Source of the DNA: Gammaproteobacteria bacterium
GTDB taxonomy: Bacteria > Pseudomonadota > Gammaproteobacteria > Pseudomonadales > JAUIET01
NCBI GenBank assembly: GCA_030429735.1
Contig: JAUIET010000001.1
Location: 682,001 to 746,000 of the forward strand
Length of the DNA stretch: 64,000 bases
Reading direction: 5' to 3'
Shown here: in pieces, positions 501-15,906 of the stretch
How positions within the stretch are numbered: the first letter of the stretch is position 1
Layout: each line of letters begins with the position of its first letter
Notes under the pieces: generated by a model
Seen by the model: only the letters and a program-made list of their open reading frames with translations
What the model was told of the DNA's origin: nothing
The model's database searches: none
Program-made: the position numbers and the translations under genes

Positions 501-517
501 ACTCTTTAGGGAAGACT

Positions 518-916
518 ATGGTCGATATTGCTGATGACGAAGTGCCAACGCCGCTGGGTGAGCTCACCTTGCAAGCGGTGGCCATGCCCAAAGACACCAA
601 TGCCAGCGGCGATATTTTTGGTGGCTGGCTGGTGTCGCAAATGGACCTGGCGGGCCTGGTGACTGCGGAAAGGATAGCGCATGGGCGCGTAGCAACCGTC
701 GCGATTGACGAAATGAGTTTCATGGTGCCAGTGAAAGTGGGGGCCGTAGTCAGTTGCTACACAACACTGATGCGAACCGGGCGAAGCTCAATCCATGTTC
801 AGGTTGAAGTCTGGGCCGTCAATCAGGGCAAAACTGAATTGCACAAAGTCACCGAAGGCGTGTTTGTGTTCGTAGCCATCGACGACAATGGCCGCACGCG
901 GGCCATTCCGAAATAG
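518..916 (+). CDS. Acyl-CoA thioesterase, YciA-like hotdog protein
   Basis: A 132-residue single hotdog domain. The GDIFGGWLVSQMDLAG stretch near residues 31-46 is the signature of the YciA/acyl-CoA hydrolase family, which cleaves acyl-CoA to free acid and CoA in the cytoplasm. The reading frame is open back to 455, but the ATG at 518 has an AGGGA ribosome site 5-9 bases upstream and gives the usual family length, so it is taken as the start. It follows the TRAP permease by 17 bases on the same strand and may be co-transcribed. Substrate chain length cannot be read from sequence. Confidence 0.88.
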   Translation: MVDIADDEVPTPLGELTLQAVAMPKDTNASGDIFGGWLVSQMDLAGLVTAERIAHGRVATVAIDEMSFMVPVKVGAVVSCYTTLMRTGRSSIHVQVEVWAVNQGKTELHKVTEGVFVFVAIDDNGRTRAIPK

Positions 917-931
917 CGCTCCCGGTATCGT

Positions 932-2026
932 TTACAGCTCCCGCGCTTCGATATACGCCTGTTCCGAAATTTTGTGCCAGGCGTTAACGTCGTCCTTAAA
1001 TGCTTTCCATGATGCATACACTTTTTTTGCAAACGGCGATGCGTTTGCAAATTCTTCGGTCACTTCCGCGGCGGCATCACGCAGCGCAATCAGCACTTCA
1101 TCGGGCAGGCGACGAACCTGTACGCCGTGTTCTTCTACCAGAGTTTTCAAGGCCGTATTGTTTTTTGCGGTGAATTCATCCAGCGTGTCCTGGTGCACAC
1201 TGCGGGCAGCAAACTCAACAATGGCTTGCAGGTCTTTGGGCAAGGTCTCCCATGCCGCTTTATTCACTGTGAATTCGAGGTTAGGGCCAGGTTCTTGCCA
1301 GCCGGGGTAGTAGTAATACTTGGCCGCTTTATGCAAGCCAAACGCCAAATCATTGTAAGGCCCCACCCACTCGGTAGCGTCAATTACACCGTTTTGCAAA
1401 GAGGTGAACAGGTCACCCCCGGGTAAGTTCATGGCCGCTCCGCCCAACTTGTTCAGCACTTCGCCGCCCAGGCCGGGTATGCGCATTTTCAGCCCTTTCA
1501 AATCTGCAACCGTGTTGATTTCCTTATTAAACCAACCGGCCATTTGCACGCCTGTATTGCCGCCCGCTAATGGCACCAGACCAAACGGTTCGTACGCTTC
1601 ACGCCATAGTTCCAGGCCACCGCCGTAGTGCAACCAGGCACTCATTTCCTGCGCGGTCATACCGAACGGGATGGCTGCAAAAAATGGCGACGTGGCAACC
1701 TTACCGCGCCAGTAATAGGCCCCTCCGTGACTCATCTCCGCGGTTCCTTGTTGCGCGGCGTCAAACGCCTGCATGGCGGGAACCAACTCTCCTGCGCCAA
1801 ATACTTTTATTGTTAGCCGACCATCGCTCATCAGTGCCACACGCTCAGCAAAGCGCTCAGGCGCCATACCCAGACCAGGGAAGTTTTTTGGCCAGGTTGT
1901 TACCAGTTTCCACTTGAACCGTTGTTGCTCTGCCGCCGCATGTCCATCGGATGCTGGTTGTTCAGCCCCACACGCCAGCAGCGTAAAAGTACATATAATC
2001 GACAGTAATACGCGCATTCTCTTCAT
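932..2026 (-). CDS. TRAP transporter substrate-binding lipoprotein (DctP/TakP-like)
   Basis: A 364-residue solute-binding protein. It begins MKRMRVLLSIICTFTLLAC, a lipoprotein signal with a LLAC lipobox, so it is probably tethered to a membrane. The mature part starts with WKLVTTWPKNFPGLG, typical of the TakP-like branch that binds 2-oxo acids or related carboxylates, and carries the family's NLPGGDLFTSLQNGVIDATEW region. The frame is open to 2104, but the upstream residues would spoil the signal peptide. It lies 38 bases downstream of uvrD on the same strand, and its likely permease partner is at the left edge on the other strand. Ligand is inferred, not shown. Confidence 0.88.
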   Translation of the reverse strand: MKRMRVLLSIICTFTLLACGAEQPASDGHAAAEQQRFKWKLVTTWPKNFPGLGMAPERFAERVALMSDGRLTIKVFGAGELVPAMQAFDAAQQGTAEMSHGGAYYWRGKVATSPFFAAIPFGMTAQEMSAWLHYGGGLELWREAYEPFGLVPLAGGNTGVQMAGWFNKEINTVADLKGLKMRIPGLGGEVLNKLGGAAMNLPGGDLFTSLQNGVIDATEWVGPYNDLAFGLHKAAKYYYYPGWQEPGPNLEFTVNKAAWETLPKDLQAIVEFAARSVHQDTLDEFTAKNNTALKTLVEEHGVQVRRLPDEVLIALRDAAAEVTEEFANASPFAKKVYASWKAFKDDVNAWHKISEQAYIEAREL

Positions 2027-2064
2027 GGTTTCAAGTGCCCTTATTGTTGCTCTATCTTGTTGCT

Positions 2065-4296
2065 CTATAACGCTTCCAGCTTCGCCAGCGCGGCCACTAG
2101 CCACTTACTGCCGGCGCCATCAAAATTAACCTCTACTCTGGCATTGCTGCCTTGCCCTTCATAATTCAATACCACGCCTTCACCAAACACCTTGTGCATG
2201 ACGCGTTGCCCTAACTGGAAGCCAACCGCGGCATTCGCTTCGGCCTGATTAGCTTGCGCAAGCTTGCCGTGGTAAGAATTTCCATTGCTATAGCCTGACT
2301 TCCCATAACCCGAGTGGCGGCTCTCGGTATAGCCATGGTGCACTGGCCGCTGAACTTCGGCCTTAAGCCTGACTTCCTGTACCAGGCTGGCAGGAATTTC
2401 CCGCACAAAACGCGATTGGCTGTTAAACGTGTCACTGCCGTGCATTCGACGCACTTCGGCATAGCTTAAAAAAAGCTTTTGCATCGCTCGGGTAATCCCC
2501 ACGTAACATAATCGGCGTTCTTCTTCGAGCCGGCCTGGCTGGTCCATAGACATACGGTGAGGAAACAGGTTTTCCTCCATGCCCGTCAGGAACACATAGG
2601 GGAATTCCAGCCCTTTTGCGGAATGCAAGGTCATCATCTGCACGCTGTCTTCAAACTCATCGGCCTGTGCATCACCGGAGTCCAGCGCAGCGGTATCAAG
2701 AAATTCCTGTAGGGGACTGAGGTCTTCATCGTCCGGTTCGAAACTTCGGCAAGCGCTAACAAGTTCTTCCAGGTTTTCAATTCTTGCCTGGCCTTTCTCA
2801 CCCTTTTCCTTACCGTGGTAATCCAGAAGCCCTGAGTGCTGCAGGACATGATCGGCCACCTCAGCAAGGTTCATATGGTCGGTGTCTTTATCAAGAGTGT
2901 CTACCAGGTTTAGAAAACCCAGCAATGCATTGCACGCGCGAGCATTAAGTCGTTGCCCTTCAATAATCTGTTTGCTGGCTTCCCAAAGCGAAATTTGCTG
3001 ATCTCGGGCCAACAAGCGGACTTCGTCCAATGTTTTACCGCCAATACCGCGGGTGGGAATATTGACCACCCGTTCAAACGCAGCGTCTGAGCCACGTGCT
3101 ACTATCAAGCGCATATAAGCCAGTGCGTTTTTGATTTCCAATCGGTCGTAAAAACGTTGGCCTCCGTAGACTCGGTACGGGATTGCCTGTCGTAACAAGC
3201 CCTCTTCAATAACTCGCGATTGCGCATTGGAGCGGTACAAAATGGCAATCTCATCCCGGCGATTGCCGTGCTGCAATAAGCTTTCGATACGCTCAACAAT
3301 GTAGCGTGCTTCATCCAGTTCATTAAATGCCGCGTACAAGCTGATCGCTTCGCCTTGCGCACCTTCTGTCCACAGATTCTTCCCCATGCGCCCGGAATTA
3401 TTGGCAATCAGCGCATTCGCAGCATTCAGTATGGTTGCTGTGGAGCGATAATTCTGCTCTAGTCTAACAACTTCTGTATGTTTGAAATCCTCAGTAAACT
3501 GCTGAATATTCTCAATTCGCGCGCCACGCCAGCCATAAATCGACTGGTCATCATCACCCACGGCGGTCACCGCAATAGTGTCACCGGCAAGCACTCTAAG
3601 CCAGGCGTATTGTATGGTGTTGGTATCTTGAAACTCGTCGACAAGTATCGCTTTAAAACGGCGCTGATAATGTTCAAGAACAGTTGGTTGCTTCAACCAC
3701 AGCTCATGAGCGCGCAATAACAATTCAGCAAAATCGACCAAACCGCCACGTTCGCAGGCTTCTTCATAGCCGCGATACACACGCAGCATGGTTTCGTGGA
3801 ATACGTCGCCGGAAGGATTGATGTGCGCCGCTCGGCGACCCTCATCTTTCTGTTCGTTGATAAACCATTGAGCCTGTTTTGGTGGCCACCGGCTTTCATC
3901 CAGATCCAGATTTTTGCAGGTTCGCTTAACTATGCGCAGCTGGTCGTCAGAATCCAGAATCTGGAAGTTTTGCGGTAAGCCGGCTTCCTGCCAATGCGCT
4001 TTTAGCAAGCGATGGGCCAGCCCGTGAAACGTACCCACCCACATTCCTCGAATCGGTGTCGCCAACAGGTCTTCAATTCGGTAGCGCATTTCCTTTGCGG
4101 CTTTGTTGGTAAAGGTAACCGCCAGTATGCTGTGCGGCGAAAAGTTAGCGGCCTGTATCAGATACGCAATGCGATGCACTAATACGCGTGTCTTGCCGCT
4201 ACCTGCGCCAGCTAATACCAGAACATTTTGGGAATCAGCGGTTACCGCCTGTTTCTGTTCCGTATTTAACTGCGCCGTTATTCTGTCTGGATTCAT
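2065..4296 (-). CDS. uvrD: DNA helicase II (UvrD)
   Basis: A 743-residue superfamily 1A 3'-5' helicase for nucleotide excision and mismatch repair. Motif I is LAGAGSGKTRVL near residues 28-39, motif II is VDEFQDTN, motif III is GDDDQSIYGWRGA, and the C-terminal part has MTLHSAKGLEFPYVF and the VGITRA motif. The tail after residue 690 (GQRVMHKVFGEGVVLNYEG) is the small UvrD-type C-terminal domain, which separates it from Rep, also encoded in this window. The gene is divergent from an EAL protein with only 37 bases between starts. No LexA box was seen in that gap. Confidence 0.96.
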   Translation of the reverse strand: MNPDRITAQLNTEQKQAVTADSQNVLVLAGAGSGKTRVLVHRIAYLIQAANFSPHSILAVTFTNKAAKEMRYRIEDLLATPIRGMWVGTFHGLAHRLLKAHWQEAGLPQNFQILDSDDQLRIVKRTCKNLDLDESRWPPKQAQWFINEQKDEGRRAAHINPSGDVFHETMLRVYRGYEEACERGGLVDFAELLLRAHELWLKQPTVLEHYQRRFKAILVDEFQDTNTIQYAWLRVLAGDTIAVTAVGDDDQSIYGWRGARIENIQQFTEDFKHTEVVRLEQNYRSTATILNAANALIANNSGRMGKNLWTEGAQGEAISLYAAFNELDEARYIVERIESLLQHGNRRDEIAILYRSNAQSRVIEEGLLRQAIPYRVYGGQRFYDRLEIKNALAYMRLIVARGSDAAFERVVNIPTRGIGGKTLDEVRLLARDQQISLWEASKQIIEGQRLNARACNALLGFLNLVDTLDKDTDHMNLAEVADHVLQHSGLLDYHGKEKGEKGQARIENLEELVSACRSFEPDDEDLSPLQEFLDTAALDSGDAQADEFEDSVQMMTLHSAKGLEFPYVFLTGMEENLFPHRMSMDQPGRLEEERRLCYVGITRAMQKLFLSYAEVRRMHGSDTFNSQSRFVREIPASLVQEVRLKAEVQRPVHHGYTESRHSGYGKSGYSNGNSYHGKLAQANQAEANAAVGFQLGQRVMHKVFGEGVVLNYEGQGSNARVEVNFDGAGSKWLVAALAKLEAL

Positions 4297-4333
4297 TCGG
4301 CTATGGTATCAAATAAAACCCTTGGGCATTAGA

Positions 4334-5647
4334 ATGACAGGCATGGAACAGACGGATAAATTGGTGAGCGGCACGCAGAGTAAACACCCGCTCTGTGATC
4401 GACAGGAGCTGCTGAATCGGGCAGGCAACGCCAGGACAGGCGGTGACAATGTTCACATGATTGTTCTCTACCTGGATCGCTACCGGAAAATAGTGTCAGC
4501 GCTCGGCCATGAGTTCGCACACCAGGTGCATAATGAAATAGGCGAACGCATTCTACGGGCTTATCCCGAAGCGATTGCCTTTAGTCATCTGGCCGACGAC
4601 GAGTTTGCAGTGTTGTTGGCAAGTACACCCAAGGCGCGGCTGCGGACCTTGTCTGAAGCGGCCTTGAAGACTACGCGCGAGCCCTTGTTGATTGATGGCC
4701 AAACCGTGGTGGTAACCGCCAGCGCCGGCATTGCCAGCAGTAACGTCAAGCTACCGCTCGATGGGGCCGAGCTGCTGCAGCAGGCCGGTCTGGTGGCCAG
4801 CGAAGGGCAACGCAAAGGTGGTAACTGCTTTACGTTCTATTCCGGGGCCGTGCAGCAAGAACCGCTCAGGCGCTTGGATCTGGAGCTGGATTTACGCCGC
4901 GCACTCGAAGCTGATGAGATCAGCGTGTTTTATCAGCCCATTTTTGATTTACGCTCCAACCGGGTAACTGGTCTGGAGGCTCTTGCCCGCTGGCGTCATG
5001 CTGACCTGGGCTGGATTGAGCCTACCGAGTTTATACCCCTGGCGGAAGAAAGTGGTCTAATCGCCGATATAGGCGTGCGAGTACTCAATCAGGCGTGCGC
5101 GGATACGCGTGCGTTTCTGGGTGACACGCAAGGTCTGGATTACGTTGCGGTCAATTTTGCCGCGCGGCAAATTGAGCACCGCGACCTGGTCAAGATTACC
5201 GAGGGTATTTTGGGTCGTTTGCGTTTTCCGGCAGACCGACTGGTATTGGAAATTACCGAAAGCGATTTTCTCGAATCAGAGCAACGCATCATCAAGAGCC
5301 TTGCTACGCTGCGCAGTTCTGGTGTTAGAGTAGCAATTGATGATTTTGGAACGGGTTATTCCTCACTTAGAGTCTTAAAGGAGTTTCCGGCAGACGTGCT
5401 AAAGATTGACCGGCAGTTCGTACAGAACGCACACTGCCGGCACGTGGATGCCACTATTACCAGGGCGGTGATCGACATTGCACACAGCCTTGATATGAAA
5501 GTGGTTGCCGAAGGCGTAGAAAACACCGAGCAATTGCATTATCTGCGCGCGGCCGGTTGCGACGCTATTCAGGGCTTCTATGTGGGTCGCGCAGTGGGCT
5601 CCGAGCAGCTGGCAGAGCTATTCAATGCAACGGGCATTGAACCATAG
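4334..5647 (+). CDS. Cyclic-di-GMP phosphodiesterase: degenerate GGDEF plus intact EAL
   Basis: A 437-residue cytoplasmic protein. The N-terminal half folds like GGDEF, but the signature is LADDEF instead of GGDEF and should not make c-di-GMP. The C-terminal EAL domain (about residues 185-430) keeps the residues needed for hydrolysis: E of EALAR, N of AVNFAARQ, E of LEITES, both Asp of IDDFGTGYSS, K of LKIDRQF, E of AEGVE and Q of IQGFYVG. The frame is open to 4103, but that would run through uvrD. ATG 4334 is preferred, ATG 4343 is possible. No transmembrane segment or sensor domain is visible, so the input signal is unknown. Confidence 0.87.
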   Translation: MTGMEQTDKLVSGTQSKHPLCDRQELLNRAGNARTGGDNVHMIVLYLDRYRKIVSALGHEFAHQVHNEIGERILRAYPEAIAFSHLADDEFAVLLASTPKARLRTLSEAALKTTREPLLIDGQTVVVTASAGIASSNVKLPLDGAELLQQAGLVASEGQRKGGNCFTFYSGAVQQEPLRRLDLELDLRRALEADEISVFYQPIFDLRSNRVTGLEALARWRHADLGWIEPTEFIPLAEESGLIADIGVRVLNQACADTRAFLGDTQGLDYVAVNFAARQIEHRDLVKITEGILGRLRFPADRLVLEITESDFLESEQRIIKSLATLRSSGVRVAIDDFGTGYSSLRVLKEFPADVLKIDRQFVQNAHCRHVDATITRAVIDIAHSLDMKVVAEGVENTEQLHYLRAAGCDAIQGFYVGRAVGSEQLAELFNATGIEP

Positions 5648-5652
5648 ACGGG

Positions 5653-5946
5653 CTAGTTTTGAACCTCGGCGAACAGGTTTTCAACTGAATCGATCACTAC
5701 ATCGCTGGCATGGTCCAGATAGTCATGGCCTTTCCAGGTCAGGCGGGTTGGCGCCAACATACCCTGATCATTGGAAATTGTTTTGATGAAACCGGCTTCT
5801 TGCAGTAACAGAAAATGATATTGCACCACCTTGGGCGGCACACCGGGCAAAATCACTGGTATTGGAATCGCCTCTTCGCTCGCGTCAAAGTCGCTGGACT
5901 CGACCTTCTCGAGGATGCGATAGATCACCATTAGGTCGCGCTTCAT
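5653..5946 (-). CDS. DUF2513 family protein
   Basis: A 97-residue protein that begins MKRDLMVIYRILEKVE and contains VVQYHFLLLQEAGFI followed by RLTWKGHDYLD. These are the start, the winged-helix-like middle and the conserved LTWxGHxFLD block of DUF2513. The family is small, often found near mobile or phage genes, and has no assigned function; the fold suggests DNA or protein binding. It is convergent with the EAL gene, with 5 bases between stops. Identification rests on these motifs. Confidence 0.72.
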   Translation of the reverse strand: MKRDLMVIYRILEKVESSDFDASEEAIPIPVILPGVPPKVVQYHFLLLQEAGFIKTISNDQGMLAPTRLTWKGHDYLDHASDVVIDSVENLFAEVQN

Positions 5947-6075
5947 GTCGTTGTTGTGGGTCGCCAGCTTTCTCGGGAACCGGGAATATCGACGAAATAA
6001 ACTTAAAGGTCAACAATGACTTAGGAGCAATAGTTCTCAAACCAGCTCAAGTTACTTGGCCGCTGTTGTTTGGCG

Positions 6076-6105
6076 CTCTAATTGGCACTCTAATTGGCAC
6101 TCTAA
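6076..6105. repeat. 12-base tandem repeat
   Basis: The unit CTCTAATTGGCA occurs twice in direct tandem (6076-6087 and 6088-6099) and begins a third time at 6100. It lies in the gap between the DUF2513 gene and the PEP-CTERM gene, just before a terminator-like hairpin. It is probably a replication-slippage product. Confidence 0.8.
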
Positions 6106-6131
6106 AAAGAAGCGCCCCGCACAAGCGGGGC
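6104..6131 (-). terminator. Rho-independent terminator for the PEP-CTERM gene
   Basis: A perfect 7-base-pair stem, GCCCCGC (6114-6120) with GCGGGGC (6125-6131), closes a 4-base loop. On the minus strand the stem is followed by TTCTTTTTAG. This is the layout of an intrinsic terminator, and it sits about 40 bases after the stop of the minus-strand gene 6173-6391. Confidence 0.72.
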
Positions 6132-6172
6132 AAAGTAGGAAGAAACTATGTAAACGTTCGACAGGACTCAGC

Positions 6173-6391
6173 TCAGGAGTAGTCGAGCGCGGCTTCCTGC
6201 CGAGCGTTCGCCTCACGGCGGCGAGTGCGCTGTCTGACCACACCCAGGCTAATCAGGCCCAAGCCCAGCAACGCGAGATTGCCTGGCTCCGGTGCGCTGG
6301 GCAAATGGGTAATGGCATACGCCAGGGTAGGCGTCATGGTCGAAAACAATCCGATCAGAATCCAATGGCGTAAGGTCAATGTAACTTTCAT
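6173..6391 (-). CDS. Very short PEP-CTERM sorting-signal protein
   Basis: A 72-residue protein made of a signal peptide (MKVTLTLRHWILIGLFSTMT..AYA, cleavage near residue 26), a linker of only about seven residues, and a classic PEP-CTERM tail: APEPGNLALLGLG, a hydrophobic stretch, then RQRTRRR. PEP-CTERM tails are recognised by an exosortase, usually in bacteria that make exopolysaccharide. Here almost nothing is left as a mature domain. A further 18 residues (EANARQEAALDYS at the end) follow the basic cluster, longer than usual. The frame is open to 6523; the ATG at 6391 was chosen because it opens the signal peptide. A terminator follows at 6104-6131. No exosortase gene is in the window. 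Confidence 0.68.
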   Translation of the reverse strand: MKVTLTLRHWILIGLFSTMTPTLAYAITHLPSAPEPGNLALLGLGLISLGVVRQRTRRREANARQEAALDYS

Positions 6392-6838
6392 GTACAACTT
6401 CGCGGGGTTTCCCGCCCTCTGAGTCTTTCTATCCATGGCCAGCGTGGCCTTTTCAACCACGCGAAACGCGGGTATCTGCGCTCGCGTGGGCATGATTTGG
6501 TCCAGTGCAGCCTGCATTTCCAAGTTTGCAATTATCGGACCAATTTAATAATCCCTTTTTATTCAACAACTTATCTCATTTGCTCGAATAGGTGGCGACA
6601 ATACTGTTAATTTTTCCGACAAATTCGGCCTTTTCACCGCTGTTTTCGAGCTTGTTGCCAAAAATGCCGTACGCGCTGCGCCCAGGCGCGGCGAATTATC
6701 AAGCAATTCGAGTAATAATCAATCGTTAATGTAAAAAAAGCCGACACGAATTGCTTTTGTTTACATTTGGCCGGCGACTGGAATTACGATCACGGTCTGG
6801 TATGCTGCGCGGTCCTTCGATTTACCTGGTTACGCTGA
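6392..6838. other. Gene-free region between the PEP-CTERM gene and gshA, with nested inverted repeats
   Basis: This 447-base gap separates divergent genes. It holds two overlapping inverted repeats. AAGCAATTCG (6701-6710) pairs with CGAATTGCTT (6747-6756). AATGTAAAAAAAGC (6728-6741) pairs with 6753-6767, with one bulged G. The two structures share bases 6753-6756 and cannot form together. No convincing coding frame was found here. Confidence 0.6.
6780..6806 (+). promoter_or_regulatory. Possible gshA promoter with extended -10
   Basis: TGGTATGCT at 6798-6806 is an extended -10 element 32 bases before the gshA start codon. The bases 17 upstream (CTGGAA) are only a partial -35 match. This is a reading by eye. 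Confidence 0.35.
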
Positions 6839-8413
6839 GTGTCGTCTGCATTTAATCAACGAATAAACAGCCTGCAGCAGTCCGATACCCATCGCTTGTT
6901 ACGCGATGTGAATCGGGGCATAGAGAAAGAGAGCCTGCGGGTGCAAAGCGACGGGAATATCGCACAGACCCCACACCCGAGCGCTTTCGGCAGCGCCTTG
7001 GCAAATCCCCACATTACTACTGATTTTTCCGAAGCTTTGCTGGAGTTTATTACACCCGTCTGCCAAAGCGTTGATGAAGCACTAACGTGGTTGAGTGAAA
7101 TCCATCAGTTCAGTTATGCGGGCCTGAACGCAAGTGATACAGCCAGCACGGAGACGCTGTGGGCTGCAAGTATGCCCTGCATACTGCCTAACGATGCGGG
7201 CATACCGGTAGCGCAGTACGGCTCATCGAATATAGGGCAGATGAAAACCGCGTACAGACTGGGCCTGGGCGAGCGCTATGGGCGCGCAATGCAAACCATT
7301 GCCGGCGTTCATTACAATTTTTCATTCAGCGATGAGTTTTGGGCCGCGTACCAAGAACAGTGCTCGACCGCAGGCCGTTTGCAGGATTTTAAGACGCAGC
7401 AGTACTTTCACCTGATTCGAAATTTCCGTCGTTATTCCTGGCTACTGGTGTATTTGTTCGGCGCCTCACCCGCTCTGTGCCAGACCTTTCTCGGGCACGA
7501 CCGGCATGCCTTGTCTCGGCGCGGCAAAGGCACTTTGTTTTCTCCGTACGGCACGTCGTTACGAATGGGCGATTTAGGCTACCAAAGCAGCGCGCAAGAG
7601 AGCTTGTATGTGTGCTACAACAGCCTGGATGAATACGCGACAACCTTAAGCGGTGCATTAACAAAACCCATTCCGGAGTACGAGCGCATCGGAACCCACA
7701 GAGATGGCCGGCGAATACAGCTCAGCACGGCCCTGCTGCAAATTGAAAACGAATTTTACAGCAGCGTCAGGCCAAAACGAGTTACTCACTCCGGTGAGCC
7801 ACCGCTTACCGCGTTGATGGAGCGCGGTGTTGAATACATTGAGGTGCGTTGCCTGGATGTAAACCCTTATTTACCAATGGGCATAGATGCCGAGCAAATA
7901 CGCTTTATCGACGCATTCTTACTGTATTGCCTGCTTGAAGACAGCCCGGCCATTCCACCGGAGGAATGCAAGGCGATTGGCGTAGACAACAAAACAGTGG
8001 TCAACAATGGTCGCAACAAAGACGCCCAGCTGCGCTATGGCGGCAAACTGACGGACGTGCCAGCCGCGGCCAGGGAGTTAATGAACAGTATCGAGGCGTG
8101 CGCCGGTGTGTTTGACCAGGCAAAGGACTCCAGTAATTTCAGCGCTGCGTGGCGAAGCCAGCTCAATAAAATGAATGACGATGAGGCCCTACCGTCGGCC
8201 CGGGTGCTGGCCGACCTGGCTGACTTTGGCGAGTCATACTTCAATTTTGCCATGCATAAATCGCGCGAGCATGCGCAGGGTTTTGCCGACAATCCACTCA
8301 GTGCTGAGCGCCAACAATATTTCAATGACTGCGCTCGACAATCAGTTGAAAAACAAGCAGCTATCGAAGCCGCTGACAAAACGGATTTTGAGACGTTTCT
8401 GGCCAACTACTAG
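6839..8413 (+). CDS. gshA: Glutamate-cysteine ligase
   Basis: A 524-residue type 1 (gammaproteobacterial) glutamate-cysteine ligase, the ATP-dependent first step of glutathione synthesis in the cytoplasm. Recognisable parts are the N-terminal RGIEKESLRV block, TDFSEALLEFITP, the HYNFSFSDEFW block, and the C-terminal GVEYIEVRCLDVNPY block. Length agrees with the family (about 520). The start is a GTG at 6839 with a weak ribosome site; no nearby ATG gives the conserved N-terminus. It is convergent with a FliL-like gene 17 bases on. Upstream lies a long gap with overlapping inverted repeats that might serve as regulatory DNA. Confidence 0.95.
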   Translation: MSSAFNQRINSLQQSDTHRLLRDVNRGIEKESLRVQSDGNIAQTPHPSAFGSALANPHITTDFSEALLEFITPVCQSVDEALTWLSEIHQFSYAGLNASDTASTETLWAASMPCILPNDAGIPVAQYGSSNIGQMKTAYRLGLGERYGRAMQTIAGVHYNFSFSDEFWAAYQEQCSTAGRLQDFKTQQYFHLIRNFRRYSWLLVYLFGASPALCQTFLGHDRHALSRRGKGTLFSPYGTSLRMGDLGYQSSAQESLYVCYNSLDEYATTLSGALTKPIPEYERIGTHRDGRRIQLSTALLQIENEFYSSVRPKRVTHSGEPPLTALMERGVEYIEVRCLDVNPYLPMGIDAEQIRFIDAFLLYCLLEDSPAIPPEECKAIGVDNKTVVNNGRNKDAQLRYGGKLTDVPAAARELMNSIEACAGVFDQAKDSSNFSAAWRSQLNKMNDDEALPSARVLADLADFGESYFNFAMHKSREHAQGFADNPLSAERQQYFNDCARQSVEKQAAIEAADKTDFETFLANY

Positions 8414-8430
8414 GCACAGTAAGACTCGAC

Positions 8431-8847
8431 CTAGCTCTGCACAACAAAGTTGTCGAACAGCAGGTCAGTCACTATTTTCTCGCCCTCTTCGGCTTCCAAT
8501 ACATCTTGAACCGCGCGCAGCGCGTCGGCCCGCAGTTTTTGCCTGCCTTCATGGGTATTCACGCCGTCACTGGTTTGTTGGCTGAGCAGCAAAATAATGT
8601 GATGCCGAATTTGCGGCGTGTGTGTTTCCACTTTGTGGGAATTTGGCAGTGATTCAACCCGCACGGAAATGTCCACTTTCAAATAGTGCAGGCGGCTGTC
8701 GTTGCCATAGTTGGTAACGAACGAAGGGGTCAATGCAACGTAAGTGGGCTTCTCTAACTGTGTCTGGGCAAGCGCAACGGATGCCGTCAGTGCCAGCAAG
8801 CACGCACTGACTGCGGAACAAAGCAGAGACGTATAATATTTGAACAT
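8431..8847 (-). CDS. FliL-like flagellar basal-body-associated protein
   Basis: A 138-residue protein with a signal peptide (MFKYYTSLLCSAVSACLLALTASVALAQ) and a FliL-type domain ending in the characteristic EGEKIVTDLLFDNFVVQ. FliL proteins sit in the membrane near the flagellar stator. This copy is an orphan: no other flagellar gene is in the window, and a cleavable signal rather than a single membrane anchor is predicted. The frame allows an ATG at 8865, but AAGGA is well placed before the ATG at 8847. A role outside motility is possible. Confidence 0.75.
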   Translation of the reverse strand: MFKYYTSLLCSAVSACLLALTASVALAQTQLEKPTYVALTPSFVTNYGNDSRLHYLKVDISVRVESLPNSHKVETHTPQIRHHIILLLSQQTSDGVNTHEGRQKLRADALRAVQDVLEAEEGEKIVTDLLFDNFVVQS

Positions 8848-9003
8848 GGTGATATCCTTATCCATCCAGTTCTATAAGCGTAGCAGACGCGAATAGAGGC
8901 TACCTAAAGTCAATAGTATTAGTTGGTCTTGCTGAGGTTTCTACGCTGGCCTATATTTAGAAGATAGGGCTAGAAAAACAGCCAAAGTACCAGCGAGACA
9001 ATT

Positions 9004-9462
9004 ATGACGGCCGATAACACGGATAAACTGAACCACGCCATCGAGGGTTGGCTACAAGAACGCCAGGAGCTGATTGTGTTGTATTGCTCTGTGTGCGGGG
9101 TACATCAACAGATTGTTGAGTCACCCACCAAAATCCAGCGCTTGAAAACGTTTTGCCAGATTCTGGTTGATTACTGCTCAGCTGGACATTTCGAAGTATT
9201 CCCCGAGCTCATTAAACACGCAGCCAACAGAGGTGAAGAGAGCTCTACAACCGCAAACTCTTTGCTGAGCAAGATTCAGGACACTACGGATATCTCGCTG
9301 GACTTTAATGATCGATACGAAACGGAAGAACTTCCACCCGAAGTGCTAGAGCCCTTATCGCGGCACCTGTCCAAGCTGGGCGAAGCGTTGGAACTGCGCT
9401 TTCATTATGAAGACCAGCTGGTTGAATACTTGCACGTGCCACCGTCATCAGCGGTTGCCTAA
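9004..9462 (+). CDS. rsd: Rsd/AlgQ family anti-sigma-70 regulator
   Basis: A 152-residue all-helical protein matching Rsd (E. coli) and AlgQ (Pseudomonas): IEGWLQERQELIVLY near the start, LKTFCQILVDYCSAGHFEVFPEL in the middle, LDFNDRYE, and LGEALELRFHYEDQLVEYLH at the end. The family binds region 4 of sigma-70 and lowers housekeeping transcription in stationary phase. In Pseudomonas algQ lies close to the hem genes, which are about 16 kb away here. Start is the ATG at 9004. The gene stands alone between the FliL-like gene and a WD40 lipoprotein. Confidence 0.88.
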   Translation: MTADNTDKLNHAIEGWLQERQELIVLYCSVCGVHQQIVESPTKIQRLKTFCQILVDYCSAGHFEVFPELIKHAANRGEESSTTANSLLSKIQDTTDISLDFNDRYETEELPPEVLEPLSRHLSKLGEALELRFHYEDQLVEYLHVPPSSAVA

Positions 9463-9538
9463 AGGTCGTTAACAGAGTCACTCCAGCACTTCTGAGGTCT
9501 GCTAGACTTAAGGCAATACACGACAAAGTGCCTTAGCA

Positions 9539-10543
9539 ATGCTGACTGACTCACGGAAGAGCTCACGGTCCTTACCTTTCTATCTACCCCTGTTTTTCCT
9601 GATCGCGCTTGCCGCGTGCGACAGTGGTAAGCCTCCTTCACGTTCACTCGAAGTCGCTGTGCAAGGCATTTACGGTGCCAGCATCAGTGCAGACGCCAGC
9701 CACGCCATTATCGCCTCTATGAATCATGGCGGCAGCCTGTGGCGCCTGGATGACAGTGAACGTCGGTACAATTGGAATCACAAAGCGGATGGGTACAGTG
9801 AACTCACGGCCGCCGCCTTTTCTCCTGACGGTCAGTATGCGGTGACCGCCGATTATCAGAACCTGGTTCTGTGGGAAGTACCTACGGGCAAGGGCACTCG
9901 ATTCTGGACCAGTCCGGATCAGATTCTGGATCTGGACTTGATGCCTGATGCCCGTTACGCCCTGCTCGGCATGGAGAATTACACTGCCGTTTTATTTGAT
10001 GTGCAGATTGGTGGTGTCAGGCGGGTGTTCCATCATGACAACCGCGTGCGCAGCGTCTCGCTTAGCGCTGACGGTCGGTACGCACTGACCGGTTCCGAAG
10101 ACCGTACAGCGAAACTGTGGGACACCGAAACAGGCGACCTGCTGCAGCACATGGAGCACGACGACGAAGTGCGGCTTGTTGAACTGTCACCCGATGGCAA
10201 TATTGCTTTCAGCGTCAGCAAATACGATACCGCCAAGTTGTGGCGCACAGAAGATGGTGAGTTGATCGGTGAACTACCGATGCGCTCTTTCGCCCTTCAG
10301 CGCGGTTTGACCTTTCAATCAGCGCGCTTTTCCAGCGATGGCAGCAAACTGCTAACCGGCACGTCCGATCGCGTAGTGCAGTTATGGAACACCAATAGTC
10401 TTCGGAGCCAACGCTCGTGGACTATCCCAAAACGCGACGCATGGAAACCAACCAGCGCCGCGGTCCTGGCGCTTGGGTTTGAGAAAAGCGGTGATGCTTA
10501 CTGGGCAGTATCCTCTAACGGGTTTCTGCACCGTTTAAAGTAA
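9539..10543 (+). CDS. WD40-repeat lipoprotein
   Basis: A 334-residue lipoprotein. The signal ends in a LAAC lipobox near residue 27. The rest is a beta-propeller with several WD40-like blades whose units carry 'SPDGQYAVTAD..NLVLWEV', 'SADGRYALTGSEDRTAKLWD' and 'SSDGSKLLTGTSDRVVQLWN'. Blades three and four are less regular. It is probably an envelope scaffold for protein contacts; no catalytic site is visible. It is convergent with the FKBP gene (25 bases between stops). No specific partner can be named. Confidence 0.8.
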   Translation: MLTDSRKSSRSLPFYLPLFFLIALAACDSGKPPSRSLEVAVQGIYGASISADASHAIIASMNHGGSLWRLDDSERRYNWNHKADGYSELTAAAFSPDGQYAVTADYQNLVLWEVPTGKGTRFWTSPDQILDLDLMPDARYALLGMENYTAVLFDVQIGGVRRVFHHDNRVRSVSLSADGRYALTGSEDRTAKLWDTETGDLLQHMEHDDEVRLVELSPDGNIAFSVSKYDTAKLWRTEDGELIGELPMRSFALQRGLTFQSARFSSDGSKLLTGTSDRVVQLWNTNSLRSQRSWTIPKRDAWKPTSAAVLALGFEKSGDAYWAVSSNGFLHRLK

Positions 10544-10568
10544 GCACCACCGTATTGTGGCCGTATCG

Positions 10569-11333
10569 CTATTCAGCGGTCTTGATGTCAAGCAATTCAA
10601 CTTCAAACATCAGCGTTTGGTTAGGCCCAATCTCACGGCCGGTACCGGCTGCACCATAGGCCATATCAGACGGAATATAGAGCTCCCACTTTGATCCTAC
10701 TGGCATTAGCTGCAATGCTTCGGTCCAACCGGCGATTACACGATTGACCGGAAACTCTGCAGGCTCGCCACGCGAGTAAGAGCTGTCAAATTCAGTACCA
10801 TCCAGCAAGGTTCCGCGGTAATGAACAGAAACCGTGTCAGTATCGCTTGGTTTTTTACCAGCACCTTGTGTCAATACCTTGTATTGCAGACCAGACTCCG
10901 TCACCACCACACCGTCTTTTTCGGCATTGTCAGCCAGCCACTGCTCACCAGCCTGGCGGTTTTCTTCAGCCACTTTTTCCATCTTCGCCTGCTGCTCATC
11001 ACGACGTTGCTGCGAGAAAGCTTGCAAGCGCTGCTGCACTTCAGTAGTTGTCATCAACGCTTCACCTTCGCCCATGCCATGGTTGAAGCCAATCGCGAAA
11101 TTATCCAGCGCGATGTCCATATTGTCTGCGCTCATTTGAGTCCCCAGGCTCAAGCCCAGTGCATAGCTGAGTTTGTCCTTGTCGGAATCAAGGCTTGGCC
11201 CTGCTGCGCTTGCAGCGCCTGCATCAGCGCTGCTTGTATCTGTATTTGCAGATTGTTGACAGGCTGAAAGGAAAACAGCGCCCAGCGCCACCAACAAAAT
11301 CTGGCGTTTAAAAGAGCCAAGAAGAAAGTTCAT
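10569..11333 (-). CDS. FKBP-type peptidyl-prolyl isomerase lipoprotein
   Basis: A 254-residue envelope foldase of the FkpA/Mip type. The signal peptide ends in LSAC (lipobox), followed by a Ser/Ala/Asp-rich linker. An N-terminal FKBP_N dimerisation region (DKLSYALGLSLGTQM through the Gln-rich helix) leads to a C-terminal FKBP domain: VSVHYRGTLLDGTEFDSSY, then GWTEALQLMPVGSKWELYIP and YG..GREIGPNQTLMFEVELL. The ATG at 11333 opens the signal peptide; the frame continues to 11375 without giving a better start. It catalyses cis-trans isomerisation of Xaa-Pro bonds in exported proteins. Confidence 0.92.
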   Translation of the reverse strand: MNFLLGSFKRQILLVALGAVFLSACQQSANTDTSSADAGAASAAGPSLDSDKDKLSYALGLSLGTQMSADNMDIALDNFAIGFNHGMGEGEALMTTTEVQQRLQAFSQQRRDEQQAKMEKVAEENRQAGEQWLADNAEKDGVVVTESGLQYKVLTQGAGKKPSDTDTVSVHYRGTLLDGTEFDSSYSRGEPAEFPVNRVIAGWTEALQLMPVGSKWELYIPSDMAYGAAGTGREIGPNQTLMFEVELLDIKTAE

Positions 11334-12168: not shown

Positions 12169-13365
12169 TTAACGCGGATTCCACCAGGCATCGTTGTCCG
12201 GAACAGGCGATGTCAATGTTTTCAAAAAGGCCACCAGCTCGGCTTTTTCCTGCTTACTCAGCCCCAGTGGCAAAATATCGAAATGCGGCCTGCTTGGATG
12301 CTGAGCCCGGTCATAAAAAGGGGGCTTGGGCGCATTGTAGTGGTCTACTACGTCGGCAAGCGAAGCGAGTTGCCCACCGTGCATATAGGGGCTGGTTTCA
12401 GCCACATTTCGCAGCGACGGCGTTTTAAATGCACCTACCAATTCCGGGCCTTGAGATTTCAAATACCTGAGCTCCTGACAAGCTGATTCAGGCGCGTCGC
12501 TCCACACAGACAAACAATTGAACTCATCGTTTCGAAGCTTCTCGATGCCCGCGTAGCGGCCAAGGTCAACCTTGGCTTCGTCGGTCTCTGGCGCGCCAAT
12601 ATTGTGGAATTCGAAATTGCTGAACAGCGGTCCGTTGTGACAACTTGCACAAGCCGCTTTACCCATGAACAAGCGCAAACCATTCAGTTCAGACCCAGTC
12701 AGCCTGGCCGACATTGCTGGCGCCAACTCTTGTCCGAGTGCAGCCACGAAGCGGTCGAATTTACTGGGTTGCAAAGCTAACCTGCGCTGATAGGCCATCA
12801 GGGCTTTGCCGACATTCACCATAACTCGAGTGGCGTCATGCGCTTCTTTGCTTAAAGAGCCGAACACGGCAGAGTATGGCTCAGCGTAATGGCGGAGGAT
12901 CAGTGCCTTTAATTGCGCCCGGCTGAAGCCATGCTCGTCAGGGTGCTCGAGGGGCTCGGTGGCCTGCGCCCATAAACTGTCTTTGCGACCGTCCCAATAT
13001 CGCCACGGTCCCCAGGCAGCTGTCAACAGCGACATTGTGTTGCGTTGCGTGTTGGCTAACCCCAGGCCCCGCTTGCGACCGTCAGTAAAATAGTGTTCCG
13101 GTTGATGGCAAGTGGCGCAGGATACCAGGCCATTGGCGCTGAGGCGCGCATCGAAAAATAAACTCTGACCTAACAATGCTGCTTGTTCATTATCCGCGTA
13201 GATATTGTCAGGCGCCTCGGGAAGCGCCGGCAGATTGTCTATCGAGAAGGTTTGTAAAAACGCAATGTCTCTGTCGGTAAGCCCGTGTTCGTATGGCGGC
13301 AGAGGTTTACCGCACGCACCAAGCAGGCATACCATCAACAGTGCTTTGATCTGCCAACGCATCAT
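12169..13365 (-). CDS. Di-heme cytochrome c peroxidase/MauG-family lipoprotein
   Basis: A 398-residue lipoprotein (lipobox LGAC near residue 18) with two c-type haem sites, CATCH near residue 83 and CASCH in the second half. The spacing and the LGQSLFFDARLSANGLVSCATCH and PSLRNVAETSPYMHGG blocks place it in the bacterial cytochrome c peroxidase/MauG superfamily. Members reduce peroxide or oxidise a partner protein in the periplasm. It is the last gene of a three-gene operon and overlaps the FixH-like gene by four bases (ATGA). The lipid anchor and operon partners suggest a dedicated protein or metal substrate rather than general peroxide removal; that is inference. Confidence 0.87.
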   Translation of the reverse strand: MMRWQIKALLMVCLLGACGKPLPPYEHGLTDRDIAFLQTFSIDNLPALPEAPDNIYADNEQAALLGQSLFFDARLSANGLVSCATCHQPEHYFTDGRKRGLGLANTQRNTMSLLTAAWGPWRYWDGRKDSLWAQATEPLEHPDEHGFSRAQLKALILRHYAEPYSAVFGSLSKEAHDATRVMVNVGKALMAYQRRLALQPSKFDRFVAALGQELAPAMSARLTGSELNGLRLFMGKAACASCHNGPLFSNFEFHNIGAPETDEAKVDLGRYAGIEKLRNDEFNCLSVWSDAPESACQELRYLKSQGPELVGAFKTPSLRNVAETSPYMHGGQLASLADVVDHYNAPKPPFYDRAQHPSRPHFDILPLGLSKQEKAELVAFLKTLTSPVPDNDAWWNPR

Positions 13366-14300
13366 AAGTGCAGATTGAATCGCAAACTGTCTTGTTGATC
13401 TGCCGCGTCACTGCTGGCCGACACCAATAGCTCTATCACCCACCAGCCCCGCATCTGAAACTTCAGGCCGGATATCCGGTAGATTCCAGGTGCCAATTCC
13501 TCCGTGACTTCAGGTTGTGTCGGTAAGCCATGCACATGGCCTGGCATATGGCCGGTAAATTCTATAGCGGCGTCGGAGACCGGCTCGCCATTCAGATCGC
13601 TGAGCACCAGAACCCATTGATGCAGCTCATTGATTTCAATGCGACCGTCATCACTTCGAACCGATTCGGGTAGAACTTCGATATGCCCAATGAAACGTCG
13701 ATCACGTGAAAAGGTGAAGCTGTCTGTGTTCAGCTGCGGCGGCAATTGTTGCGCTGATAATCTTGGCAGCGCTAGAGACATATCATTGCTTTGCTGAGTC
13801 TCAGGCGCACCCGCCAGATCTTTTTTGCTCGGGTGCACACTGCGCATTCTGACATTGTGTCCGCCCAGGGCGGGCACGTCACTGAAGCCGTCGCTGAGCT
13901 GAATGGATTGGCGTTTAGTCGCCCAGGCTGGCCATTGTTGCCGCAAACCATCTGCGAAGTGATCCAACGCCTGCTCTCTGAGAGCGGCTGCCTGCTTGCG
14001 CAGCTCAGCCCCGTCTCGCTGGGTGCCCAGGCTTTCCGCTATGGCCTGCTCAAGCCGTTGTTCCAGTGCTGTTTTTTCTGGACCGGGTGGTAACCGCAGA
14101 ACAGTCTGACGTTGTTGCTTGATGTCCTTGCGGCGTTTGCTGCCTTGTTGAATCAGCTTTCTGGCCTGATTTTCCAGTGTGTCGGCTTTGCGCAACAGTT
14201 CGCTACCTGCTTGTATCGCGTTGTTTGAACTGCCCTGTGCCTGCAGCGGCCCATACAGCAAAAGAAACAGTGACAGCAGCAGGAAGCGCGCGAGTATCAA
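13362..14300 (-). CDS. Exported coiled-coil protein with FixH/YtkA-like C-terminal domain
   Basis: A 312-residue secreted protein. After a signal peptide (to about residue 22) comes a long, highly charged helical stretch, roughly residues 30-125, probably a coiled coil. The last ~100 residues look like a FixH/YtkA-type Ig-like domain: LNGEPVSDAAIEFTGHMPGH, then HGLPTQPEV..LAPGIYRISGLKFQMRGWWVIEL. The His/Met cluster GHMPGHVHG resembles that of periplasmic copper-linked YtkA/FixH domains. It sits between the beta-propeller gene (22 bases upstream) and the di-heme enzyme, which it overlaps. Metal binding is plausible but not demonstrated. Confidence 0.7.
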   Translation of the reverse strand: MILARFLLLSLFLLLYGPLQAQGSSNNAIQAGSELLRKADTLENQARKLIQQGSKRRKDIKQQRQTVLRLPPGPEKTALEQRLEQAIAESLGTQRDGAELRKQAAALREQALDHFADGLRQQWPAWATKRQSIQLSDGFSDVPALGGHNVRMRSVHPSKKDLAGAPETQQSNDMSLALPRLSAQQLPPQLNTDSFTFSRDRRFIGHIEVLPESVRSDDGRIEINELHQWVLVLSDLNGEPVSDAAIEFTGHMPGHVHGLPTQPEVTEELAPGIYRISGLKFQMRGWWVIELLVSASSDAADQQDSLRFNLHL

Positions 14301-14322
14301 AATCTAATCTCGTATGTTGTTG

Positions 14323-15906
14323 TTACGTGAAAACACGCTTCCGCCAGGCCAACAGCGCCAGCAGTACCAACATATGGTGAACCGGCGTGCTGCCACCGCC
14401 ACCAGCGCCATTACTTGCTGTATTGCTGGTGTTACCTGAATTACCCGGGGTTGGCGCGGGTTCGGGTTCGGGTTCGGGTTCGGGTTCCGGTTCTGGCTCA
14501 GGTTCAGGTTCAGGTTCAGGTTCAGGTTCAGGTTCAGGTGTTGGTCCACCACATGCAGGGCTAACGGCCGGCGCGCCCGGATTGCTTCCTGCATTAATCG
14601 CTGCCATATCCGGGGTCAGGACGAACAGACCGGTTCCAATATCACTGACCACTACATTACCACTCGCAAAATAAGGGTAACTGCTCCAGGCACCGGAGAA
14701 TTGAGCGGAGTCAGAACAGGGAATGGTATCGAAATAGCCTACCTCACTGAGTGTACCGGCAGCGGCGTCTGATGTGTTCAGAATGCGAAGACCAGAGCGA
14801 TAATTTGCTTCATAGGCCAAATCGCCGCGAGTATACAAATTATGATCTATCGAGCCAGTGGCGTGTACGAAGCGACCGGTTTCGCGTGGCGCGGTCAATG
14901 CACTGACGTCCCAGATATGGGATGTGGTGTTGATACCAGTACGTTGCTCATCCAGCTCATCATTCATGATCAGCTGGCTGTGATTGTCGTCCACAAACCA
15001 GCCTTGGTGGGTGTACTGTGAACCACTGTACGGTGTTCGTGACAACAGCTGCGGATTATTTTTGTCTGACACGTTAACTATAGTGATGGTGTCTTCATTG
15101 TAAGCCACGCAGATCTCATTACCAAAATAAGGTGAATCTGGCCCCTGATAGTTCACACATTGAGCGTCATGAGTGTAACCATCCGCTGAATAGCAGCCAG
15201 CAAATTGCGGTGCTGTCGGGGTAGAGATATCCACCATATACAAGCCACCACTGCATTGATCGGCACCCACAACATAGGCAAAGCCGCTGTCTTCATTGAT
15301 TGCAATATTGTGCGCTGCACCAAAGCCAGCCAAATGCGCGGTTTCCGTTAAAGTACTACCGGCGGCTACCGTAGTCAGCGTTCGCAAATCAAATACCTGC
15401 AAGCCGTGCGTGTTGTTGCCGCGGCCATCAGCAACGATAAACGCGTGATCTTGATACACTTTGATATCCCGCCAGTCGTCGGCGCCATTGTTATGCGAGG
15501 GCAGAAACCCAAGCAATACGGGTGCCACCGGGTCTGTGATATTCACAAATGAAGTGCCGGTCTGCAAACCGACAATGGCAACTTCCATGCCAGTCGCCAG
15601 ATCAGTCCAGCCCCAGACATCGTTTAATTCCGCGCCGGCAGCACCTAATTGCGCAGCGGTGAAGACACTGCGTAAATCGATATTTCTGCAGGGGTAATCA
15701 CCGGCCAGGCCACCCGTACAGGTTTCCATTCGACGAAGGTTGGAGCGTGCTTTGTCAATGCCGGCATCATCGCTTGTGATGCGCAAACCTTCGTTGCTGT
15801 TGTCATAGCGAAACTGGTCAGGAAACATGGCGCTGTGCGCCGCGACCTGGCCGCAGAATAATACGGCGAGAAAAGTGCCATACAGGCAAAAGAGTATGTG
15901 CTTCAT
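14323..15906 (-). CDS. Choice-of-anchor B family beta-propeller with Pro-Glu linker and C-terminal anchor
   Basis: A 527-residue exported protein. A signal peptide (to about residue 23) is followed by LVIVD-type repeats forming a beta-propeller (EVAIVGLQTGTSFVNITDP; HNIAINEDSGFAYVVG; SHIWDVSALTAPRETGRFVHA). Many Cys residues suggest disulfides. After ACGGPTP comes a run of about 13 Pro-Glu pairs, then a Ser/Asn/Gly linker and a tail GGGGSTPVHHMLVLLALLAWRKR. This is a Gly-rich, hydrophobic, basic sorting signal resembling GlyGly-CTERM (rhombosortase) tails. It is the first gene of a three-gene operon with a FixH-like protein and a di-heme peroxidase. Ligand and enzymatic role are unknown. Confidence 0.83.
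   Translation of the reverse strand: MKHILFCLYGTFLAVLFCGQVAAHSAMFPDQFRYDNSNEGLRITSDDAGIDKARSNLRRMETCTGGLAGDYPCRNIDLRSVFTAAQLGAAGAELNDVWGWTDLATGMEVAIVGLQTGTSFVNITDPVAPVLLGFLPSHNNGADDWRDIKVYQDHAFIVADGRGNNTHGLQVFDLRTLTTVAAGSTLTETAHLAGFGAAHNIAINEDSGFAYVVGADQCSGGLYMVDISTPTAPQFAGCYSADGYTHDAQCVNYQGPDSPYFGNEICVAYNEDTITIVNVSDKNNPQLLSRTPYSGSQYTHQGWFVDDNHSQLIMNDELDEQRTGINTTSHIWDVSALTAPRETGRFVHATGSIDHNLYTRGDLAYEANYRSGLRILNTSDAAAGTLSEVGYFDTIPCSDSAQFSGAWSSYPYFASGNVVVSDIGTGLFVLTPDMAAINAGSNPGAPAVSPACGGPTPEPEPEPEPEPEPEPEPEPEPEPEPEPAPTPGNSGNTSNTASNGAGGGGSTPVHHMLVLLALLAWRKRVFT
14455..14541. repeat. Hexanucleotide microsatellite encoding the Pro-Glu linker
   Basis: Read on the plus strand this is a tandem array of GGTTCG units that changes, through a few variants, into GGTTCA units, about 13-14 copies in all. 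It lies inside the choice-of-anchor B gene. Because the unit is six bases, gain or loss of copies keeps the frame and only changes linker length. Confidence 0.85.

Follow-up and report, generated by a model that had tools for sequence, protein, structure and literature searches.

A conserved propeller, YtkA and di-heme enzyme operon of Gammaproteobacteria as a candidate copper-site maturation cassette

MauG-type di-heme enzymes have very few known partners. In the methanethiol-oxidase operon, the SBP56 propeller gene mtoX stands together with SCO1/senC and mauG, and its authors propose copper plus a tryptophan tryptophylquinone (TTQ) cofactor, taking the propeller as the modified protein (PMC5739008). 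In CorA and MopE, the copper site is composed of two histidines and a Trp-derived kynurenine, and the genes are co-transcribed with those of di-heme proteins (PMC3912023). The subject of this analysis is a three-gene operon on the minus strand of a 64,000-nucleotide stretch of DNA, hereafter the window, from a Gammaproteobacteria bacterium (GenBank assembly GCA_030429735.1, contig JAUIET010000001.1, positions 682,001 to 746,000). It encodes a signal peptide-bearing beta-propeller of the choice-of-anchor B family (TIGR04312), a protein with a long helical part followed by a YtkA domain, and a di-heme CCP_MauG enzyme, collectively the trio. An earlier note had recognized three linked genes here, for an LVIVD propeller, a YtkA-like protein bearing the sequence GHMPGHVHG and a member of the MauG/peroxidase family; all are present, at 12169-15906, with each family above its Pfam or NCBIfam cut-off.

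By architecture, the nearest precedent is mtoX-SCO1-MauG at least as much as the MbnP/MbnH pair. Like the methanethiol-oxidase operon, the trio joins a propeller with conserved His to a copper chaperone or chaperone-like protein and a MauG-type enzyme, fusion of the latter two being possible, and two examples of the methanethiol-oxidase MauG that were aligned likewise carry Tyr at the ligand position. Unlike that operon, its propeller is TIGR04312 and not SBP56, its middle protein is YtkA and not SCO1, and its di-heme enzyme occupies a separate branch in a quick tree. Within the window's own genus, locus L186 encodes SBP56, SCO1 and di-heme proteins in this order as three separate genes, and its genome holds no match to the trio's middle protein; in L185, an SBP56 gene is followed by a SCO1-MauG fusion. 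The trio also resembles MbnP/MbnH, MopE/SACCP and CorA/CorB, in which a copper or partner protein, in some cases at the cell surface, is paired with a MauG-like di-heme protein. It differs from MbnP/MbnH in that the middle protein is YtkA instead of MbnP, its modeled fold matches CrdA/CopC, and the di-heme enzyme scores below the MbnH cut-off. Among openly licensed PubMed Central papers, we found no description of the pair or the trio, and none of the choice-of-anchor B family.

The trio and its YtkA-di-heme core

The trio is a real conserved unit. A search with the middle protein in 145 genomes of the same order matched 18 genomes, once each. Six of these matches, the window's own genome included, extend over most of the length, and all six are flanked by a TIGR04312 propeller gene and a di-heme gene; the other 12 cover the YtkA domain only, and each adjoins a di-heme gene in a stretch that, as far as examined, contains no propeller match. 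One scan of a GTDB-based collection returned 27 loci, 19 long and eight YtkA-only. Every long locus has the order propeller, YtkA, di-heme (in L034 a contig end truncates the di-heme gene), and all eight YtkA-only loci adjoin a di-heme gene. One further trio, L086, came from a sample of the gammaproteobacterial class. When the full middle profile was run against the collected open reading frames (ORFs), 29 rows matched beyond the YtkA domain, 24 after de-duplication and all in trios, and 58 further rows matched the YtkA part only. The co-occurrence that the earlier note had named as a check on its idea is thus seen in 24 of 24 distinct cases, each long middle protein lying between propeller and di-heme gene in the same order, and the YtkA-di-heme core is wider still. 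The hosts are Gammaproteobacteria and two Oligoflexales-type metagenome-assembled genomes; their names include Aliikangiella, Microbulbifer, Hahella, Saccharospirillum, Zooshikella, Pleionea, Marinibactrum, a Pseudobacteriovorax and an Oligoflexales bacterium. No fourth gene beside the trio is common to more than three of the 21 loci examined, some of which are short.

The core is the YtkA-di-heme pair, and the propeller apparently joined it once. An unselected test used 369 gammaproteobacterial genomes searched with the YtkA-domain profile, and hence not chosen by similarity to the window. Matches occurred in 46 genomes at 55 places, equivalent to 50 loci because five places are second domains of ORFs already counted. 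Where the YtkA loop reads MxxHxHG, a di-heme gene lies in the stretch examined at 22 of 23 loci (window included): 20 as same-strand genes, one divergently (L149) and one as a fusion, L160:3671-5548, which encodes both parts in a single lipoprotein-like frame of 625 residues. The sole unlinked MxxHxHG locus, L147, has by eye an apparent transposase gene at the di-heme place. Among the YtkA loci with other motifs, none of 27 has a di-heme match; 14 of these are Met-rich loops in CusB-like long ORFs, 10 are of the QYMP or QFMP type and three are neither. For the first 38 of the 50 loci, motif and di-heme linkage are associated with a Fisher p of 1.0e-9. In the 145 same-order relatives, the Pfam YtkA family was found at 24 places in 21 genomes, of which 17 are the linked ones already found; the remaining seven make up six loci with no di-heme match, five CusB-like and beside efflux-type genes (by eye) and one a fragment (L112). 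A named example of the pair is PNAP_RS28045 with PNAP_RS23155 on plasmid pPNAP03 of Polaromonas naphthalenivorans. No third gene is conserved across 20 pair-only loci, and no further family occurs in more than five of them, the next largest cluster (cl2) being ABC-transporter-like ORFs (by eye) in five of the 20.

Several observations concern the surroundings of the pair. Very large frames with a weak di-heme match lie beside it at L117 (~3-8711) and L118:2859-8336; that of L117 also overlaps the pair itself in the ORF list, and its extent is unsure. Larger LVIVD-type proteins, with open frames of ~810-850 residues, occur in genomes that have the pair but not the trio (L119:3638-6121 on the minus strand, and weak TIGR04312 matches in G044, G080, G109 and G136); the one in G109 is ~4 kb from the pair. 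As a lead only, proteins with a likely mature N-terminal His stand next to the pair. Such a residue is found in five of 14 signal-bearing direct neighbors at non-trio loci and, over all loci, in 12 of 31 signal-bearing neighbors versus five of 198 elsewhere (Fisher p 1.8e-8), in a test that was devised after examples had been seen, uses a crude rule and counts related rows. Two families recur (Table 1). The HVRWFV membrane proteins are weakly similar to DoxX, at scores under its cut-off, and one of them also to HvfX (18.9 of 80 bits). Neither Pfam nor NCBIfam gives a match for the HGSVVD family.

The three proteins

The di-heme protein matches PF03150 (CCP_MauG) at 131.1 bits, against a gathering score of 25.6, and bears the heme sites CATCH and CASCH; a lipobox, LLGAC, was read by eye in the window protein only. 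An ungapped alignment of its residues 306-345 with MauG 257-296 places Tyr343 on MauG Tyr294, and Trp124, Gln134, Pro138 and Glu144 align with MauG Trp93, Gln103, Pro107 and Glu113, so that equivalents of all five residues of the methylamine dehydrogenase enzyme are in the window protein. The Nitrosomonas europaea peroxidase 1iqc has Met258 at the Tyr343 position, matching the reported distinction between a Tyr-His ligand pair in MauG and Met-His in peroxidases (PMC6405878). The Tyr343 equivalent and both CXXCH sites are present in 62 of 62 YtkA-linked enzymes (23 trio, 38 pair, one fusion), a count that omits the duplicates L001, L003 and L006 as well as L034, L149, L131, L140, L168 and L169. 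Trp124 is kept in 59 of the 62 and is His in the L160 fusion. His occupies the Trp93-equivalent position in both the L160 fusion and the L185 SCO1-MauG fusion. By its ligand residue, then, the enzyme is MauG-like, which speaks against a classical peroxidase. BthA, a Tyr-ligated di-heme enzyme, nonetheless has peroxidase activity (PMC6405878), so the linked enzymes may or may not share the chemistry of MauG. Modification of a partner, either the propeller or the YtkA protein, is plausible.

Three closer identities were tried and rejected. The protein scores 163 bits with the MauG model TIGR03791, whose cut-off is 443.85, and, unlike the MauG locus, its surroundings contain no methylamine dehydrogenase family among ten proteins scanned with Pfam. 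It scores 161 bits with the MbnH model, for which the cut-off is 362.85 and the true MbnH of L089 reaches 458.7. A classical cytochrome c peroxidase would have Met, where the sequence has Tyr343, as ligand of the six-coordinate heme. In the main tree, the 23 trio enzymes group in a single clade (support 99/98) among the pair enzymes, consistent with one origin of the trio; the outgroup rows, P_L014 and P_L018 are on long branches. A second, quick tree, which omits P_L014, P_L018, O_own2 and 15 of the 23 trio rows, places two methanethiol-oxidase-type MauG proteins outside the YtkA-linked clade (96% by the Shimodaira-Hasegawa-like approximate likelihood ratio test), with the L089 MbnH as root. 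Apart from this enzyme, the window's own genome has a single CCP_MauG match.

The middle protein matches PF13115 (YtkA) at 43.2 bits (gathering score 25.9), with GHMPGHVHG at residues 250-258 and Met283 further along. In its AlphaFold model (mean predicted local distance difference test score, pLDDT, 80.5), the N-terminal part forms two long helices, with a mean pLDDT of 87-97 per ten-residue block over residues 31-130. The best Foldseek match of the YtkA model is silver-bound Helicobacter pylori CrdA, 9ll4 (E 5.6e-5, target TM 0.70); CopC at rank 8 (E 0.027) and PcoC at rank 29 (E 0.10) are both weak. The label FixH/YtkA-like given earlier can accordingly be kept as YtkA by Pfam and refined to CrdA/CopC-like by modeled fold. 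Fold and MPG-type loop are shared with the copper proteins CrdA, CopC and CtaK (YtkA); unlike these, the window protein has His-x-His replacing the loop Met, a long helical part in front and a di-heme partner gene. M252, H255, H257, M283 and W287 are present in all 44 di-heme-linked YtkA domains (24 trio, 20 pair; the duplicates L001, L003 and L006, equal to the window, L029 and L028, are omitted). W229, two residues after His227, is found in 41 of the 44 and in none of seven CusB-type domains. These seven have Met at the loop position of H255 and no His in the loop because they were picked by their Met motif, and second YtkA domains lacking that motif (L093, L096) stand outside the count. A profile search of the Protein Data Bank (PDB) with the middle protein returned matches to the helical part only, at E 0.3 and above; no NCBIfam model exceeds its cut-off, MbnP (TIGR04052) is not listed at E <= 0.5, and SCO1 is not listed by Pfam at E <= 0.1. 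Copper binding is reported for H. pylori CrdA, whose Met-rich MPGM loop, MMXEMPGMXXMXEM, is the proposed site (PMC9182242), and the Bacillus subtilis YtkA-domain proteins CtaK and YcnJ have been linked to Cu-A assembly in a model that includes Sco (PMC13344008). From the CrdA fold match, the invariant loop residues and the B. subtilis role, we infer copper handling, which is the best supported role of the YtkA protein.

The propeller matches TIGR04312 over residues 62-431 (491.6 bits, cut-off 100) and the LVIVD family PF08309 (36.6 bits, cut-off 20.2). We compared 21 trio propellers with seven TIGR04312 proteins that have no adjacent YtkA-di-heme pair; L087 is a fragment, L001-L006 are left out, and so is the G323 match (L085), for which no ORF matched. 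H24, M27, D30, Y223, Y269 and R370 occur in at least 20 of the 21 trio propellers and in a paralogue from the window's own genome, and in none of the seven others, three of which are unaligned over residues 24-30. His24 itself is present in 21 of 21 and the paralogue. H199, H246, H300, H355, W98, W145, W303 and W407 are shared by the trio propellers and all of the seven that cover the position. The residue that precedes His24, where the signal peptide ends, is A, G or S in all 22 proteins, so that His24 is probably the mature first residue, in the pattern H-x-x-M. An N-terminal His recalls the histidine-brace copper proteins. At the other end, the tail GGGGSTPVHHMLVLLALLAWRKRVFT is GlyGly-CTERM-like by eye, and the genome encodes a rhombosortase over cut-off (129.2 bits); the sortable C-terminus proposed earlier is a candidate, no dedicated tail model being listed at E <= 0.5.

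The paralogue (L074:6189-8012, minus strand; G000:C22, ~666-668 kb), ~14 kb outside the window, has the N-terminus HSAMFPD, Pro-Glu-rich repeats and a GlyGly-like tail. It shares the trio-specific residues, the 16 kb examined contain neither a YtkA nor a di-heme match, and it could be served by the window's pair.

The solved propeller nearest by Foldseek is the phosphotriesterase of Sphingobium sp. TCM1 (5hrm, 5ioj); this is a hydrolase, and identity is low (13% by Foldseek, 18% by VIA-align). The VIA-align rows are mostly WD40-type proteins (Z ~30) and speak to fold only, not to function. A PDB profile search with propeller alignment A3 had no match at E <= 10. With the trimmed-domain alignment A6, to which other TIGR04312 proteins had been added, it gave only two haloalkylphosphorus hydrolases, at E 0.07 and 0.14, neither significant; His199 aligned there with the His at chain position 258 of 5ioj, which we take to be a metal ligand. 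An SBP56-type propeller was rejected, as PF05694 is not listed by Pfam at E <= 0.1 and hhalign gives a probability of 6%. One of the seven comparison proteins, the propeller of L089 (5900-8641, minus), is divergent from, and 81 bp away from, an MbnP-MbnH pair (8722-9531 and 9513-10625, plus) whose members exceed their cut-offs (TIGR04052 163.6 bits, TIGR04039 458.7 bits); this single locus thus has a second kind of di-heme/copper-protein pair beside a TIGR04312 propeller.

Copper-site maturation and its rivals

We propose, with a probability of roughly 0.45, that the operon is a copper-site maturation cassette, in which the YtkA protein would carry copper, the di-heme enzyme would perform an oxidative step and the propeller would be the client. 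To what can be read directly (the genes, their conservation and linkage, the motif split, the MauG-type ligand residue and the single trio clade), this proposal would add copper, hydrogen peroxide (H2O2) chemistry, the propeller as client and any protein-derived cofactor. Outside the cytoplasm, the Met-x-x-His-x-His loop of the YtkA domain would hold copper, probably as Cu(I), and the Tyr-type enzyme, driven by H2O2 as MauG is, would carry out the oxidative step of maturation. In the three-gene version the client would be the secreted propeller, whose N-terminal His (H-x-x-M), four-His ring and trio-specific Tyr may make up a metal site or lie next to one, and the helical part of the trio's YtkA protein may hold the client. 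A more ambitious form of the proposal, rather unlikely as a whole, would make the trio propeller a previously undescribed secreted copper enzyme, using its N-terminal His, the channel histidines and a Tyr223/Tyr269- or Trp-derived cofactor made by the di-heme enzyme. The methanethiol-oxidase plan would then have arisen a second time, independently, and the pair would be a general maturation module that serves other N-terminal-His envelope proteins as well.

Several points weigh against the maturation-cassette proposal. No extra family accompanies the pair in more than five of the 20 pair-only loci, which rules out the propeller as the first client and leaves the YtkA protein itself as a possible substrate. 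In the class sample, the genomes G309 and G507 have the YtkA-di-heme pair together with a TIGR04312 propeller on another contig that lacks the trio residues, so the pair is not by itself accompanied by a trio-type propeller. A crude cleavage rule places the cut at His24 in only seven of 15 scorable trio propellers and two to six residues earlier in the other eight. The N-terminus of the propeller model is of low confidence (pLDDT <50 at residues 20-56), so nothing in it places His24 near the other histidines, and the joint metal site is putative. Lastly, the nearest solved propeller is a phosphotriesterase (5hrm, Foldseek E 1.6e-12) and not a copper oxidase.

Less probable than the propeller as client, and on the unlikely side, is a logic like that of MbnP, in which the YtkA protein is the substrate, one of its residues, with Trp229 the best candidate, being oxidized to complete a copper site that the propeller came to use later. 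The pair is commoner with no propeller than with one, and in the tree the pair enzymes enclose the trio clade, so that YtkA is the only constant neighbor of the enzyme. Trp229 has the distribution given above, and the Trp-derived kynurenine of CorA and MopE, with its co-transcribed di-heme genes (PMC3912023), supplies a precedent. Trp229 is nevertheless missing from three of the 44 linked domains, the trio-specific propeller residues would be left unexplained, and the methanethiol-oxidase chaperone likewise stands beside or fused with MauG, yet there the propeller is taken as the modified protein (PMC5739008).

A still more doubtful view holds the di-heme protein to be a peroxidase that shields a copper-carrying envelope system from H2O2 and modifies no partner. 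Its CCP_MauG membership, the retained distal Gln, Pro and Glu, and the Tyr-ligated peroxidase BthA (PMC6405878) would agree with this; against it stand Tyr instead of Met as the ligand residue of all 62 enzymes, the restriction of the linkage to a single YtkA motif class, and the fusion to YtkA. Least probable of all is a propeller that acts, in the manner of the Sphingobium phosphotriesterase, as a metal-dependent hydrolase or binding protein, with the pair supplying its metal but performing no oxidative chemistry on it. The top Foldseek match and the only PDB profile matches at E <= 10 (the haloalkylphosphorus hydrolases) might suggest this, but the sequence match is not significant and the MauG-type enzyme would go unexplained.

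Features of the locus and their significance

Genes 1 and 2 are separated by 22 bp, and there is a 4-bp overlap between genes 2 and 3 (Table 1). Seven flanking genes belong to other families (FKBP, DUF4124, WD40, carbonic anhydrase, MATE, Rsd and FliL-like by Pfam). The strand opposite the operon encodes, at 9539-10543, a WD40-type propeller whose N-terminus resembles a lipobox by eye. A promoter and terminator scan gave nothing above shuffled background.

Table 1. Features of the operon, in window coordinates, and of two protein families beside the pair, in coordinates of the named loci
Feature	Coordinates	Strand	Basis
Gene 1, choice-of-anchor-B (TIGR04312) beta-propeller with signal peptide, 527 aa	14323-15906	-	Pfam/NCBIfam, AlphaFold model, fold searches
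Probable mature propeller N-terminus, His24 codon (VAA/HSAMF, slash at the cut)	15835-15837	-	Conservation
Propeller domain with His199, His246, His300, His355 and trio-specific Tyr223, Tyr269, Arg370	14614-15723	-	NCBIfam, comparison
Pro-Glu repeat linker and GlyGly-CTERM-like tail	14326-14580	-	Sequence; rhombosortase elsewhere in genome
Gene 2, helical part and C-terminal YtkA domain, 312 aa, TTG start	13362-14300	-	ORF, Pfam, AlphaFold model
Long helical region of gene 2 product, residues 24-122	13935-14231	-	AlphaFold model
YtkA domain (Pfam match)	13431-13616	-	Pfam; model matches CrdA-Ag 9ll4
HMPGHVHG loop, residues 251-258, proposed copper loop (Met252, His255, His257)	13527-13550	-	Conservation, unselected motif test
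Gene 3, di-heme CCP_MauG protein, 398 aa, lipobox by eye	12169-13365	-	ORF, Pfam/NCBIfam, alignment
First heme site CATCH, residues 83-87	13105-13119	-	CXXCH in 62/62 linked proteins
Second heme site CASCH, residues 239-243	12637-12651	-	CXXCH in 62/62 linked proteins
Tyr343 codon, equivalent of MauG axial ligand Tyr294	12337-12339	-	Alignment; Tyr in 62/62
HVRWFV family, membrane proteins directly after the pair	L120:6370-7416, L123:6243-7238, L188:5480-6493		Sequence
HGSVVD family, directly before the YtkA gene	L119:8033-8683, L122:7571-8335		Sequence

The earlier note had suggested that the operon could be a system related to, but different from, MbnH-MbnP, in which the di-heme enzyme matures one of its two partners. 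This interpretation is supported in part, by the unit itself and by the non-classical ligand; it overlooked the pair as core and the methanethiol-oxidase precedent. The YtkA-di-heme pair offers a new, testable partner set for MauG-type enzymes, one in which the MxxHxHG motif predicts the link and the fused version could be produced as a single polypeptide. Should the propeller prove to be the client, the unstudied choice-of-anchor B family would gain its first biochemical hypothesis: a metal, an N-terminal His and perhaps a cofactor made from the protein itself. Because of the parallel with methanethiol oxidase, for which a MauG-made cofactor is proposed (PMC5739008), each system could be tested against the other.

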